A stretch of DNA of 59,277 bases. It comes from Nitrospirota bacterium (GTDB lineage Bacteria; Nitrospirota; Nitrospiria; SBBL01; JAADHI01). The position numbers and the translations under genes are program-made. The notes beneath the pieces were generated by a model that was not told the DNA's origin, did not search any database, and was given only the letters and a program-made list of their open reading frames with translations. Numbering within the stretch: position 1 is the first letter of the stretch; each line of letters opens with the position of its first letter. Shown here one piece after another: positions 27,966-38,943 of this stretch. The stretch is from contig JAJDBU010000036.1 of assembly GCA_029261195.1 (NCBI GenBank), positions 70,087-129,363 on the forward strand. The letters run 5' to 3'.

Positions 27966-29099
27966 ATGGGAAGTATCTACAAACCAAAGTACAGAGATAA
28001 GGATGGTAAGGTCAAAGTCTCGTCAATCTACTGGATAAAATACTACACGAATGGGAGGCCTATACGGGAAAGCTCCCATTCACCTAAACATGAAATAGCA
28101 AAGCGAGCTTTGAAAATTAGGGAGGGAAGGTCCGCTCAGGGTCTTCCTCTTGGAATTAACCTTGAAAAAGTGACCTTTGACGAACTTGCCAATGATTATA
28201 TCAATGACTACCAACTGAATAAGAGGCGATCTATAGAAACAGCGAGACACCTTGTTAAACATCTTAGCGATTTTTTCTATGGGATGCGAGCCGTAGAAAT
28301 CGGAACCGATAAAGTACGAGCATATTTGGCCTTCCGGAATAAACAAGTCGAGAGTGTAGGACGAACAGTGGCAAACGCTAGCCTCAATCGTGAACTTGAG
28401 GCTTTAAAGAGAATGTTAAATCTTGGAAGACAGGCTTGCAAAGTGGCTCACCTTCCCTATATTAAAATGCTCGAGGAGGATAATATCCGTACAGGGTATT
28501 TTGAGCATGATGAATTTCTTGCACTAAGAGAAGCCCTTCCAGATTACGTCAAAGTCCCAGTTACCATTGCTTATTATACGGGAATGCGATCAAATGAAAT
28601 TCTGAATCTTTGCTGGGATCAGGTCAACCTAGAAGATGGAAAGATTCTTCTCTCTTCTGAACAGACGAAGAACAAGTCTCCTCGGATGATATTTCTTACT
28701 GGAGAGCTTTTGCAGGTACTCATGATTGCTAGAGAGACACGAGAACAAGCTTATTCCCATTGTCCATGGGTATGCCAAAAGGACGGAGAGCGCTTGCAGA
28801 GCTTCAAGAAATCATGGAAGACAGCGCTTAAACTTGTTGGTCTTGAGGGAAGGCTTTTCCATGACTTCAGGCGAACAGCCGTTCGCAATATGGTTCGGGC
28901 TGGAATCCCCGAAAAAGTAGCCATGAGCATTTCAGGACATAAAACCCGTTCAATTTTTGATCGATATAATATCGTTTCTGAGTCAGACCTGAAAACCGCA
29001 GCGGAAAAAATCAATGCCCTAAATTCAGTTACGGGCAAAGTTACGGGCAAAGTGGAGAGATTTGAAGGTGAAATGAGAACATCAAACTACTACAACTGA
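27966..29099 (+). CDS. tyrosine recombinase (integrase)
   Basis: 377 residues, ATG with GGAGAGACC before it. The catalytic domain shows the first Arg in YTGMRSNEILNLCW, the HxxR box in FHDFRRTAVRNM and the final Tyr in GHKTRSIFDRY. The N-terminal third is an arm-binding plus SAM-like core-binding region. The gene ends 15 bases before the 3' end of tRNA-Arg, the usual arrangement for tRNA-targeting integrases. It marks the right end of the mobile element. Confidence 0.92.
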   Translation: MGSIYKPKYRDKDGKVKVSSIYWIKYYTNGRPIRESSHSPKHEIAKRALKIREGRSAQGLPLGINLEKVTFDELANDYINDYQLNKRRSIETARHLVKHLSDFFYGMRAVEIGTDKVRAYLAFRNKQVESVGRTVANASLNRELEALKRMLNLGRQACKVAHLPYIKMLEEDNIRTGYFEHDEFLALREALPDYVKVPVTIAYYTGMRSNEILNLCWDQVNLEDGKILLSSEQTKNKSPRMIFLTGELLQVLMIARETREQAYSHCPWVCQKDGERLQSFKKSWKTALKLVGLEGRLFHDFRRTAVRNMVRAGIPEKVAMSISGHKTRSIFDRYNIVSESDLKTAAEKINALNSVTGKVTGKVERFEGEMRTSNYYN

Positions 29100-29113
29100 T
29101 TGATTTTAAAGGG

Positions 29114-29187
29114 TGCGCCCAGAGGGATTCGAACCCCCGACCCCTTGGTTCGAAGCCAAGTACTCTATCCAGCTGAGCTATGGGCGC
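29114..29187 (-). tRNA. tRNA-Arg (anticodon TCG), integration site
   Basis: A full cloverleaf can be drawn: acceptor GCGCCCA/TGGGCGC, anticodon stem CTTGG/CCAAG with loop CTTCGAA (anticodon TCG), and T-arm with GGTTCGAATCC. CCA is not encoded. The 3' end faces the integrase gene, so the right attachment site of the element most likely lies in the 3' half (about 29,111-29,160). Confidence 0.93.
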
Positions 29188-29300
29188 ATGATTTCTTAAT
29201 CGGGTTTATTTCCTTGTGGGGAACCCAAACTAAATCAGGTCGGTTTGTTTGAATCCATGTTCCAGTAGACGGATAGCTTTGGAAGGACATGGGTAAAAAG

Positions 29301-33767: not shown

Positions 33768-34001
33768 CTAGGCTTTCCGAACATAGATCTTGATCAGCCC
33801 TTCTTCTACCTCGACAAGGTCAAGCAGCTCATTACCGCTGCTTTTACACCAAACCGGCATGTCTTTCTTAATCCCGGCATCATCTGAAAGAACCTCTAGT
33901 ATCTGTTCAGGAGACATCTCTTTTATTTTTTTTGATGTGAGAATCACTGGAATCGGACAGTAGAGTCCAAGGGTGTCTAAAGTTAAATCGGCTGAGATCA
34001 T
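33768..34001 (-). CDS. tusA: TusA/SirA-type sulfur carrier protein
   Basis: 77 residues with the family motif LGLYCPIPVI, whose Cys accepts persulfide sulfur. TusA-type proteins relay sulfur from a cysteine desulfurase to thiolation or sulfur-oxidation pathways. The start overlaps the cysteine desulfurase-like gene by four bases, so the two are coupled. A second Cys at about 51 (VWCKSS) is unusual and may matter for relay. Confidence 0.85.
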   Translation of the reverse strand: MISADLTLDTLGLYCPIPVILTSKKIKEMSPEQILEVLSDDAGIKKDMPVWCKSSGNELLDLVEVEEGLIKIYVRKA

Positions 34002-35179
34002 CCGCTCTGCCCTCCTATCCGCATTTTATAAAGGGGGGAAACCTGGCGCAATGTCTCAACGCACTCTGGAAAGATTTCAAGCAGACTTGAAATCTGGGCG
34101 TCAGTGGTCCCGATACCCAGGCTGAAGACAATCCCGCCCTGTGCCACGTTGCCGGGGAGGCCGATCGCGCTTAGAACGGGGGAAATCTTCAATGCGTCGG
34201 AACTACACGATGACCCGCTCGCTGCCATGATGCCGTGCTTTTCCAGGGCCTGAACGAGAGCCTGTCCATCTAAATATTCCACGGCAAAGCTGGCGATATG
34301 AGGGAGGCGATGTTCACGGCTTCCGGTCAGGTGAAGCAATGGAACAGATTTGAGTAGGCCATCGATCAGGTGGTCACGCAGCAGGGTCAGACGATTCACT
34401 TCGCGGGTCATTCGTTTTTTCGCCTCAAAGGCGGCAAAGCCCATTCCCACAATACCCGGCACATTTTCCGTGCCTGCCCGTCTTCCTGCCTCCTGTATGC
34501 CCCCTTCTATCAGAGGAGAGATTCTTGTGCCTCTTCGGACATAGAGGCAGCCGATTCCCTTCGGGCCGTAAAAAGGCTGCGCTGCAAAGGCGGCAAGGTC
34601 GATGCCCGATAATTCGCAATCAAAGGGAATCACTCCGATTGTCGCAACGGCATCGGTGTGAAAAAAGACATCGGCCTCTTGTGTGATTTGTCCGATCTCT
34701 TCAATGGCTTGAACCGTCCCGATTTCATTGTTGGCATGAAGGATAGACACCAGGACCGTGTTGTCTCGAATGGCTTCTGCGACCTGGGTTGCTGTCACCC
34801 GACCCCTACTATCGACTGCTAGGCAAGTGACAGAATAACCTTCTTTTTCGAGGTGTTTGAAGGGGTGGGCAACGGAATAATGTTCAATGTTTGTTGTGAT
34901 GATGTGCCGCCCTTTTTTCTGCCGCGCAGCAAGAACGCCCTTGATCGCCAGGTTGTTGGCTTCACTCCCGGAGGCGGTAAAGATCAGTTCGCGTGGTTCA
35001 CAGTTGATGAGTTGCGCAATCTGCCTGCGTGCGTTTTCCAGGGCTTTACGCGGGGCGGCAGCATATTGATGACGACTCTGAGGGTTTCCAAAATGTTCCG
35101 ATAAAAAGGGGGTCATCGCAGAATAAGCCTCCGGTGAGAGGGGCGTCGCTGCGATGTAATCCAGGTAGATTGTTTCCAT
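33998..35179 (-). CDS. cysteine desulfurase-like protein lacking the PLP lysine
   Basis: 393 residues of IscS/NifS fold. It keeps the stacking His100 (IEHYSVAHP), N151 (ANNEIGTVQ), D176 (HTDAV) and the sulfur-accepting Cys325 in ASGSSC. Where IscS has S-A-H-K-F/I-Y-G-P-K-G, this protein reads AAQPFYGPKG: the Schiff-base lysine is Pro202 and the neighbouring His is Gln201. The Gln that contacts PLP (E. coli Q183) is Ala179. Classic desulfurase chemistry should be impaired, so it may be a persulfide carrier or scaffold, or use another lysine. It is coupled to tusA. Confidence 0.85.
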   Translation of the reverse strand: METIYLDYIAATPLSPEAYSAMTPFLSEHFGNPQSRHQYAAAPRKALENARRQIAQLINCEPRELIFTASGSEANNLAIKGVLAARQKKGRHIITTNIEHYSVAHPFKHLEKEGYSVTCLAVDSRGRVTATQVAEAIRDNTVLVSILHANNEIGTVQAIEEIGQITQEADVFFHTDAVATIGVIPFDCELSGIDLAAFAAQPFYGPKGIGCLYVRRGTRISPLIEGGIQEAGRRAGTENVPGIVGMGFAAFEAKKRMTREVNRLTLLRDHLIDGLLKSVPLLHLTGSREHRLPHIASFAVEYLDGQALVQALEKHGIMAASGSSCSSDALKISPVLSAIGLPGNVAQGGIVFSLGIGTTDAQISSLLEIFPECVETLRQVSPLYKMRIGGQSG

Positions 35180-36254: not shown

Positions 36255-37340
36255 ATGGATAATGTTGTTTGGCGGAGAGAACAGTCATTGCCGAAAATTG
36301 CGACCTTGACTCTAAGTCCTAGCCCTGATAAAAGTTTCAGGATGCCCCCCTCTGCGGATCATATTCGTGACATGGTTCAGATTGCATTGGGCCATACTCC
36401 ACAACATAATGCGATGATCGTTTACGATCAGAACTCAGAGCTGGCTTGTCTGCTTTCAGAGGCTTATCGTAGCCTCTTGCCAGGTGCAATTTCCGTCGAT
36501 TTTGATCAGAATGATGCGGAAACCATTATGTCCATTTGGAACACCCTGTCCCCGGGAGACCTGGTCATTCTCATACAATCGACCAGTTTTCGCCTGAGTC
36601 GTTTCCGTATTCGCCTGGAACTGTTCAACCGGAAACTGAAGGTCATTGAGCATCCCCATCTTTCCCGTATCCACAAAGATGAAATTCCGGTTTATCTGGA
36701 TTCACTCGCTTATGATCCGAACTATTACCGTAGCGTCGGTCCCTGGCTCAAACGAAAAATCGATCACGCGTCAAAAATCGAACTCGTTTGTGAAGGCGCG
36801 ACACTGGTTTACAATTCCATTTTTTGCGGAGCTAAAATGAATATCGGCTGTTACGATGACATGAAAAATATCGGAGGGCAATTCCCGATCGGGGAGGTTT
36901 TTACTGAACCGGAACAACTTGAGCAGGTCAACGGTGCGATAAAGATATTCGCCTTTGGTGATATGGATTTCACGGTCAATGTGCCTGAGAAACCCGTCAC
37001 TGCCTTGATTGAAAAAGGTGTACTTGTTGACGCTCCGGGCGCACCGGAATCTTTTCAGATTGTTCTGGATGAAATCAGGAAACAGGAGGAAGTTGTCTGG
37101 GTGCGGGAACTCGGTTTTGGTTTAAACCGGGCCTTCACACGGACACAGCGTGTCCACGACATCGGGACCTATGAACGTCTCTGCGGCATCCATCTCTCGC
37201 TCGGCATCAAACATCTACAATATAAAAAGAAGATGTTTCCCAAAAAGGGCGGTTTTCATGTGGACGTTTTTGTCGATGTCCAGCAGGTTACAATCGACGA
37301 GCAAGTCGTTTTTAAAGAAGCGGAATACCAGATGCATTAG
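36255..37340 (+). CDS. M29-like aminopeptidase
   Basis: 361 residues. The C-terminal two thirds carry blocks of the M29 (aminopeptidase T/AmpS) family: GGQFPIGEVFTEPE with an expected metal-ligand Glu, RELGFGLNRAFT, and IHLSLGIKH...GGFHVDVFVD with His and Asp ligands. The first ~100 residues are less typical. It should be a cytoplasmic metal-dependent peptidase or an inactive relative; some expected ligands are hard to confirm by eye. A second possible start is at about 36,342 (MPPSAD). Confidence 0.7.
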   Translation: MDNVVWRREQSLPKIATLTLSPSPDKSFRMPPSADHIRDMVQIALGHTPQHNAMIVYDQNSELACLLSEAYRSLLPGAISVDFDQNDAETIMSIWNTLSPGDLVILIQSTSFRLSRFRIRLELFNRKLKVIEHPHLSRIHKDEIPVYLDSLAYDPNYYRSVGPWLKRKIDHASKIELVCEGATLVYNSIFCGAKMNIGCYDDMKNIGGQFPIGEVFTEPEQLEQVNGAIKIFAFGDMDFTVNVPEKPVTALIEKGVLVDAPGAPESFQIVLDEIRKQEEVVWVRELGFGLNRAFTRTQRVHDIGTYERLCGIHLSLGIKHLQYKKKMFPKKGGFHVDVFVDVQQVTIDEQVVFKEAEYQMH

Positions 37341-38172: not shown

Positions 38173-38943
38173 TTGTTTCTTGATCGAAATACGCTATCTC
38201 TCAGGGAGCATTTCAATCGTAGCTTTGAAATCGTTCAGGTTGATTCAGACCTGTTATTGGAGGAAGTCCTCCGATTAAGGTATCAGGTCTTTTGTATTGA
38301 AAATAGACTGGCTGACAATAAAAAATTTACAAATTCCATGGAACAGGATCTTTATGATCATCGCTCCGTCCACCGACTCGTTCGGCACAAAGAAACAGGG
38401 ACATTTATTGCCCACGTCAGATTGATTCTACCGGACCTAGACAATCCAGAAGATCGGTTTCCTATGGAGAACTACTGTAAGATAACCGACCAAGAAAACC
38501 TGATCTTCCACAAGAAGGTTTCCAGAACTTCGTTGGCTGAAGTCTCCCGTTTCCTCATTTCAAAAGAACGTGAACGGCAGGTGATCCTGGCAACAGCGAC
38601 ATCGGGCGCAGGTTCGATTTATCGAAAAGAAGATGGGCCTCACAGCTTCCTTCTGCTCCATGGACTCATCACGGCGGGTCTCCGCATGGCGATGGAGATA
38701 AAAAGTACTTATTTATATGCATGTATACAAACCCCTTTATTTAGATTGCTCCGGAAATTTGGAATCCATTTTATTAAGATCGGTCCACCGGTTGAGTACC
38801 ATGGACTTAGATTCCCCTGTCTTGGGACGACAGAGTCCTTCTTGTCCGGAATTTACAAGCATCGGCCGGATCTATGGGAACTTATAACGGAAGACGGCGA
38901 GTTGGCGCCGCAAATACAAGACCCATCCCTTTGTCAGAACTGA
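38173..38943 (+). CDS. PEP-CTERM/exosortase-associated acyltransferase
   Basis: 256 residues with a TTG start (GTAGAGG upstream); no internal ATG precedes the conserved block. The GNAT-like fold of the LuxI/N-acyl amino acid synthase kind shows RYQVFCIENRLADNKKF, VHRLVRHKETGTFIAHVRLI and AEVSRFLISKER. This family is usually annotated as acyltransferase associated with PEP-CTERM/exosortase systems. It probably makes an N-acyl amino acid or related lipid, perhaps a signal. It leads an operon-like set ending in a c-di-GMP protein. Confidence 0.8.
   Translation: MFLDRNTLSLREHFNRSFEIVQVDSDLLLEEVLRLRYQVFCIENRLADNKKFTNSMEQDLYDHRSVHRLVRHKETGTFIAHVRLILPDLDNPEDRFPMENYCKITDQENLIFHKKVSRTSLAEVSRFLISKERERQVILATATSGAGSIYRKEDGPHSFLLLHGLITAGLRMAMEIKSTYLYACIQTPLFRLLRKFGIHFIKIGPPVEYHGLRFPCLGTTESFLSGIYKHRPDLWELITEDGELAPQIQDPSLCQN

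Follow-up and report, generated by a model that had tools for sequence, protein, structure and literature searches.

The protein studied here, an IscS/NifS-like protein of a Nitrospirota bacterium (hereafter IscS*), has lost the Schiff-base Lys and the substrate-binding Arg of cysteine desulfurases, keeps the persulfide Cys, and is encoded by a gene that overlaps that of the sulfur carrier TusA. At the level of sequence, comparison across the phylum demonstrates that the losses of the substrate Arg and of a PLP-contacting Gln have a single origin and that catalytic residues were lost while the sulfur Cys and the partner proteins were retained under selection. Considering that the same catalytically crippled version is conserved across the whole phylum, IscS* probably passes sulfur along instead of extracting it, and we see an even chance that it acts without PLP as a relay and docking platform that links the sulfur carried by TusA to an acceptor. 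The first-pass annotation of this DNA had presented one protein with one missing residue; the loss of Lys stands, but it is actually part of a phylum-wide loss of Lys, Gln, and Arg.

The IscS* locus

By the window we mean the whole stretch of 59,277 nucleotides that was analysed. The genes that concern us are as follows:

33768..34001, minus strand, TusA, 77 aa (PF01206, E = 3.4e-22), CPIP motif kept
33998..35179, minus strand, Lys-less IscS/NifS-like protein (IscS*), ATG start, 393 aa
35212..36090, minus strand, fatty acid desaturase (PF00487), 32 bases upstream of IscS*

The stop codon of IscS* and the start codon of TusA share the four bases ATGA (33998-34001), exactly the overlap that had been described, and the sulfur-carrier CPIP motif of TusA was confirmed by alignment with E. 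coli TusA. The desaturase is probably the first gene of the IscS*/TusA transcript. IscS* belongs to Pfam Aminotran_5 (PF00266, E = 1.8e-71), its closest solved relatives in the PDB are cysteine desulfurases with full-length alignment, and it also matches E. coli IscS over the full length (E = 1e-89). It falls below both NCBIfam equivalog cut-offs (454 bits vs 531 for NifS and 360 vs 643 for IscS); the IscS found elsewhere in the same genome (L001) passes NF010611 with 668 bits vs 548.

Several other features of the window were recorded. A phage-type integrase gene (PF00589) stops 11 bases short of a tRNA-Arg gene (29111-29188), and the region 27966-29188 resembles the usual edge of an integrated element. 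A GNAT protein encoded at 38173-38943 weakly resembles autoinducer synthases (PF13444 and PF00765), and the 361-aa ORF at 36255-37340 had no match in Pfam or NCBIfam.

Active-site residues of IscS*

Residue equivalences were obtained by aligning IscS* of the window with E. coli IscS from the public record. The codons at the key positions are:

34880..34882, minus strand, codon 100, His, at the PLP-stacking/acid-base His (E. coli H104); invariant
34643..34645, minus strand, codon 179, Ala, at the PLP O3' Gln (E. coli Q183)
34577..34579, minus strand, codon 201 (CAG), Gln, at the phosphate-binding His (E. coli H205)
34574..34576, minus strand, codon 202 (CCT), Pro, at the Schiff-base Lys (E. coli K206); the plus strand reads agg
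34205..34207, minus strand, codon 325 (TGT), Cys, the persulfide Cys (E. coli C328); invariant in 52/52 family members
34127..34129, minus strand, codon 351, Val, at the substrate-carboxylate Arg (E. coli R354)

The alignment bears out the earlier description of an IscS-like protein that keeps the stacking His and the Cys and has Pro202 and Ala179 in place of Lys and Gln, and D180 (Asp176 in IscS*), N155, E77, and T243 are likewise retained. Three further losses had been overlooked, namely H205 to Gln201, S203 to Ala199, and R354 to Val351. PMC11408855 describes three residues, the Lys, the Cys, and an Arg that orients the substrate carboxylate, as conserved in all desulfurases; R354, which aligns with the conserved Arg of the IRFSLG motif, is taken to be this Arg. 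Judged from these positions, both PLP anchoring and cysteine binding are predicted to be gone from IscS*, which goes beyond the Lys alone, and with neither the Schiff-base Lys nor the substrate Arg in place, the protein should be unable to take sulfur from cysteine. No compensating Lys was found in the family alignment, in which none of the positions marking the Lys-less group is a Lys. The AlphaFold model of IscS* is weak (pLDDT 66.5, with active-site loops below 50), and neither the pocket nor a complex can be read from it. Two PDB entries (9wfe and 9wfy), deposited as variants in a desulfurase series, have Val at the substrate-Arg position, as in the IscS* family.

Conservation and selection within the order

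All relatives of the order with a contig spanning this position carry an IscS* orthologue (60-72% identity), and none of these orthologues has the Lys, which answers the earlier call for an alignment of close homologues. Their motif reads FSAQ[QPS]F..GPKG. Pro at the Lys position recurs in four genomes of one genus (L016, L018, L019, and L021), and Gln or Ser occupies it in the other order relatives; with the same Pro recurring in independent genomes, the substitution at codon 202, whose nucleotides had been called unambiguous, is not a sequencing error. Pairwise dN/dS values (Nei-Gojobori method, our own script) for six closely related IscS* pairs are 0.037, 0.107, 0.081, 0.088, 0.064, and 0.042, whereas pairs that include the window protein are saturated at synonymous sites. 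IscS* is under strong purifying selection. We also looked for what would have spoken against a genuine loss, i.e., homologues in related genomes with a normal HK pair together with a local error in the window, or pseudogene decay, and found Lys-less orthologues with open frames instead.

Distribution and phylogeny of the family in the phylum

More distant relatives in the class (L025-L029 and L032) are 44-51% identical to IscS* and show the same residue losses, and a profile search of 396 genomes found the lineage in many other families of the phylum. In this wider phylum group the motif is mostly AAHQFYGPKG, i.e., the His is kept and the Lys is replaced by Gln, sometimes by L, E, I, M, or R. 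Among the 52 family members analysed, Arg and Gln are absent from all (52/52), Lys is absent from 45, and the Cys is kept in all 52; the residues found at the Lys position of the 45 Lys-less members are Q, P, S, T, L, E, M, I, and R. H104, D180, E77, and C328 (E. coli numbering) are invariant in the family, and K, Q, and R are present in 24/24 canonical sequences of the same alignment. H205 is replaced by Gln in the class of the window and T76 by Ala in the wider phylum group, and the dimer-contributed Thr (T243) is kept in both the order and the wider phylum group.

In a maximum likelihood tree, all 52 members form a single clade against the canonical sequences (SH-aLRT 100), and the clade persists when the diagnostic columns are removed (SH-aLRT 99). 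This is a quick version of the tree, its sequences do not include the archaeal Lys-less IscS, and a misaligned SufS-like sequence (L160) was taken out after the first tree. Mapped on the tree, a single change suffices for the loss of R354, another for that of Q183, and three to four are required for the Lys. Seven members (L112, L113, L115, L137, L138, L141, and L142) keep the HK pair and have lost Q183 and R354, and therefore the defining loss appears to be that of the substrate site and not of the Lys alone. From this distribution, the ancestral event was probably the loss of the substrate site, with the Lys lost afterwards or repeatedly, and the HK-keeping members could represent natural intermediates that bind PLP without cysteine. 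Three of the seven (L137, L138, and L141) have no adjacent TusA.

In the two largest class families sampled (f6 and f13), the profile search gave no match better than about 1e-139, which is in line with the presence of canonical copies only, the residues of these matches being mostly uninspected. A scan of contigs beyond the phylum, a weak test that started from short peptides of IscS*, yielded eight canonical proteins with the HK pair and one N-terminal fragment that ends short of the site.

Coexistence with canonical desulfurases

A search for a canonical IscS elsewhere in the genome had been proposed, and one was found on contig C77 (L001, SAHK motif) together with IscR, IscU, and an IscA-type protein. 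The genome contains one IscU in total, located beside this canonical IscS, and two TusA. Further class V copies were detected in 16/16 phylum genomes searched with PF00266, and those inspected are canonical in HK, Q, and R, including one each in the complete genomes G070, G128, G183, and G294; the exception is the distant, poorly aligned SufS-like L160. Because canonical copies coexist with IscS* in the genomes checked, IscS* appears to be an addition to, and not a replacement of, a desulfurase. Identity between IscS* and the canonical copies of the same genomes is approximately 38-45% (about 43-44% in the genome of the window).

In one genome (G020, 85% complete), the genes are arranged as hybrid cluster protein-IscS*-IscU-TusA-FUR (L062), and a homologue search of this incomplete genome found no second desulfurase match; G020 may depend on IscS* alone. 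The second TusA gene of the window's own genome (L079, 5943-6188 on contig C64) lies 50 bases from a long ORF resembling an assimilatory sulfite/nitrite reductase, and the two TusA of this organism may serve different sulfur routes.

Gene neighborhoods

TusA adjoins IscS* in 13/14 loci of the order other than the window, and the desaturase is next to IscS* in most order members. By comparison, TusA was beside a canonical desulfurase in 0/30 loci when flanks of 1.5-6 kb were examined. A wider set of 44 IscS* neighborhoods, which includes a few loci of the order, has IscU next to IscS* in 35 cases, TusA in 34, and an Rrf2 regulator of the IscR type in 30; the gene order seen most often is Rrf2/IscR-TusA-IscS*-IscU. 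The first-pass annotation had thus foreseen the link to TusA but not the Fe-S assembly context, with IscU and Rrf2/IscR usually encoded alongside. IscU is absent from the IscS* locus in the window and in its order, and class members L064-L067 have no TusA adjacent to IscS*. In L063, L064, and L066, IscS* adjoins an ISC operon and a DsrE/DsrE/TusB-like triplet, and a homologous DsrEFH-type triplet, of a kind that also lies next to IscS* in related classes, is present on contig C18 of the window's genome.

In the IscU proteins adjacent to IscS*, the three cluster-binding Cys and the Asp are intact; their HscA motif LPPVK is mostly LPPQK (seen in the L109-L143 operons). The partner TusA proteins keep the sulfur Cys, and in the wider phylum group (L109-L143) they have CPMH instead of CPxP. 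In the f5 genomes, a set comprising FUR, rubrerythrin, an Fe/S cysteine-rich (CCG) protein, and DUF3501 adjoins IscS*, and one class member has rubrerythrin-CCG-DUF3501 (loci L054-L057, L059, and L063 in all); these neighbors suggest a link to oxidative or peroxide stress.

Proposed role of IscS* and alternatives

In the role that we favor, a relay of persulfide sulfur, IscS* would lack desulfurase chemistry and obtain no sulfur from cysteine. Cys325 in its presumably mobile loop would take sulfane sulfur from, or give it to, the TusA Cys, and would exchange sulfur with an acceptor docked at the same IscS surface. For the greater part of the phylum, this acceptor would be the neighboring IscU, and Fe-S cluster assembly would be fed by TusA-borne sulfur; in the organism of the window it could be the IscU shared with canonical IscS, or another TusA client. 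The natural direction in an IscU-containing operon would run from TusA to IscS* to IscU, the reverse of that in E. coli, and the upstream source may be a DsrEFH/TusBCD-type relay or one derived from canonical IscS. On E. coli IscS, the docking sites of TusA and IscU are separate but both lie around Cys328 (PMC2854127), and therefore a non-catalytic scaffold could hand sulfur between TusA and IscU. The earlier suggestion that the pair handles persulfide sulfur taken from another source fits all of the findings, and the coupling to TusA is strongly conserved; persulfide carriage and its direction, however, belong to what we infer, together with the kept fold, the persulfide on Cys325, TusA binding, and the upstream sulfur source. 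In its full form, the module Rrf2/IscR-TusA-IscS*-IscU (IscS*-TusA in the order of the window) would be one in which a dead desulfurase receives TusA sulfane sulfur, the usual direction is reversed, and cluster sulfur becomes cysteine-independent, a tentative proposal that we place on the doubtful side.

Some observations count against the relay. Trp45, Glu49, and Arg237 of the E. coli TusA interface (PMC2854127) correspond to Ala41, Lys45, and Ala231 in IscS* of the window; Asp52 of the same interface is Glu48, Arg55, Arg220, and Arg225 are retained, and canonical sequences also vary at Trp45 and Glu49. The lack of adjacent TusA in L064-L067 and of IscU beside the gene in the window is also counter to it.

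It is possible, though unlikely, that IscS* works in the manner of the Archaeoglobus-type protein, docking IscU and lending Cys325 as a cluster ligand, with sulfide as the sulfur source and TusA serving regulation or repair. A. fulgidus IscS shows the same combination of a lost Lys and a kept Cys, and its Cys serves as a ligand of the IscU cluster (PMC7585200); PDB 4EB5 is among the structural-database matches of IscS*, and IscU adjoins IscS* in 35/44 neighborhoods. However, the locus carries no IscU in the window or its order, the sole IscU of the genome lies beside canonical IscS, and the neighbor that persists in the order is TusA.

A regulatory pseudoenzyme that carries no sulfur, and acts by forming mixed dimers with canonical IscS or by titrating TusA or IscU, seems rather improbable. 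A canonical IscS is indeed present in the genomes checked and the dimer Thr is retained, but the persulfide Cys, which a pure decoy would not need, is invariant, and the two proteins of the window's genome share only about 43-44% identity.

There is a slim chance that IscS* is a new enzyme, whose vacated pocket binds PLP non-covalently or accommodates another sulfur donor (persulfide or thiosulfate) for an alternative catalysis. His100 and Asp176 are invariant although a Schiff base is impossible, and the seven members with HK and without Arg and Gln indicate an ancestral change in the substrate site. On the other hand, the group is not set apart by a newly conserved Lys or any other residue of evident catalytic function, and the phosphate site is weakened by the replacement of His by Gln (class of the window) and of T76 by Ala (wider phylum group).

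Finally, a sequencing or assembly error or a decaying pseudogene, which one genome by itself could not exclude, has a negligible probability and is refuted by Pro, Gln, or Ser in all covering order relatives and by dN/dS of 0.04-0.11, and countered further by the open frames and the phylum-wide clade.

Comparison with known systems

Sulfur for Fe-S clusters and thio-modifications is usually considered to enter through cysteine desulfurase. In this phylum a working desulfurase is accompanied by a PLP-stripped second copy with links to TusA and IscU, which points to another route of sulfur entry, and isolated archaeal cases of Lys-less IscS are here extended to bacteria, where the operon itself identifies the partners and makes the question directly testable. 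Caution is needed in annotation, as IscS* genes score as NifS/IscS despite the missing catalytic residues. In the literature searched, with partial coverage, we found no description of a bacterial Lys-less family, of the Arg loss, or of the TusA linkage.

By analogy, the closest precedent for IscS* appears to be the Lys-less IscS of A. fulgidus (PDB 4EB5/4EB7/4HVK and 4R5F). As had been noted, an archaeal IscS with Asp at this position exists: in PMC7585200, A. fulgidus IscS is described as having Asp in place of Lys, lacking desulfurase activity, and contributing one of its Cys to the ligation of the IscU cluster, and IscS1 of Methanosarcina acetivorans as lacking the Schiff-base Lys. Like IscS*, both are group I proteins in which the Lys is gone and the persulfide Cys kept. 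They are paired with IscU, which adjoins IscS* in 35/44 neighborhoods but is not at the locus in the order of the window; they are archaeal, and no coupling to TusA is reported for them in the literature consulted. E. coli IscS shares with IscS* the fold family, the Cys loop, and the partners TusA and IscU, but it generates persulfide from cysteine and carries K206, Q183, H205, and R354, all four of which are lost from IscS* of the window. The canonical NifS/IscS proteins of the same genomes are homologous to IscS*, but have K, Q, and R in every sequence aligned and TusA beside none of the loci examined.
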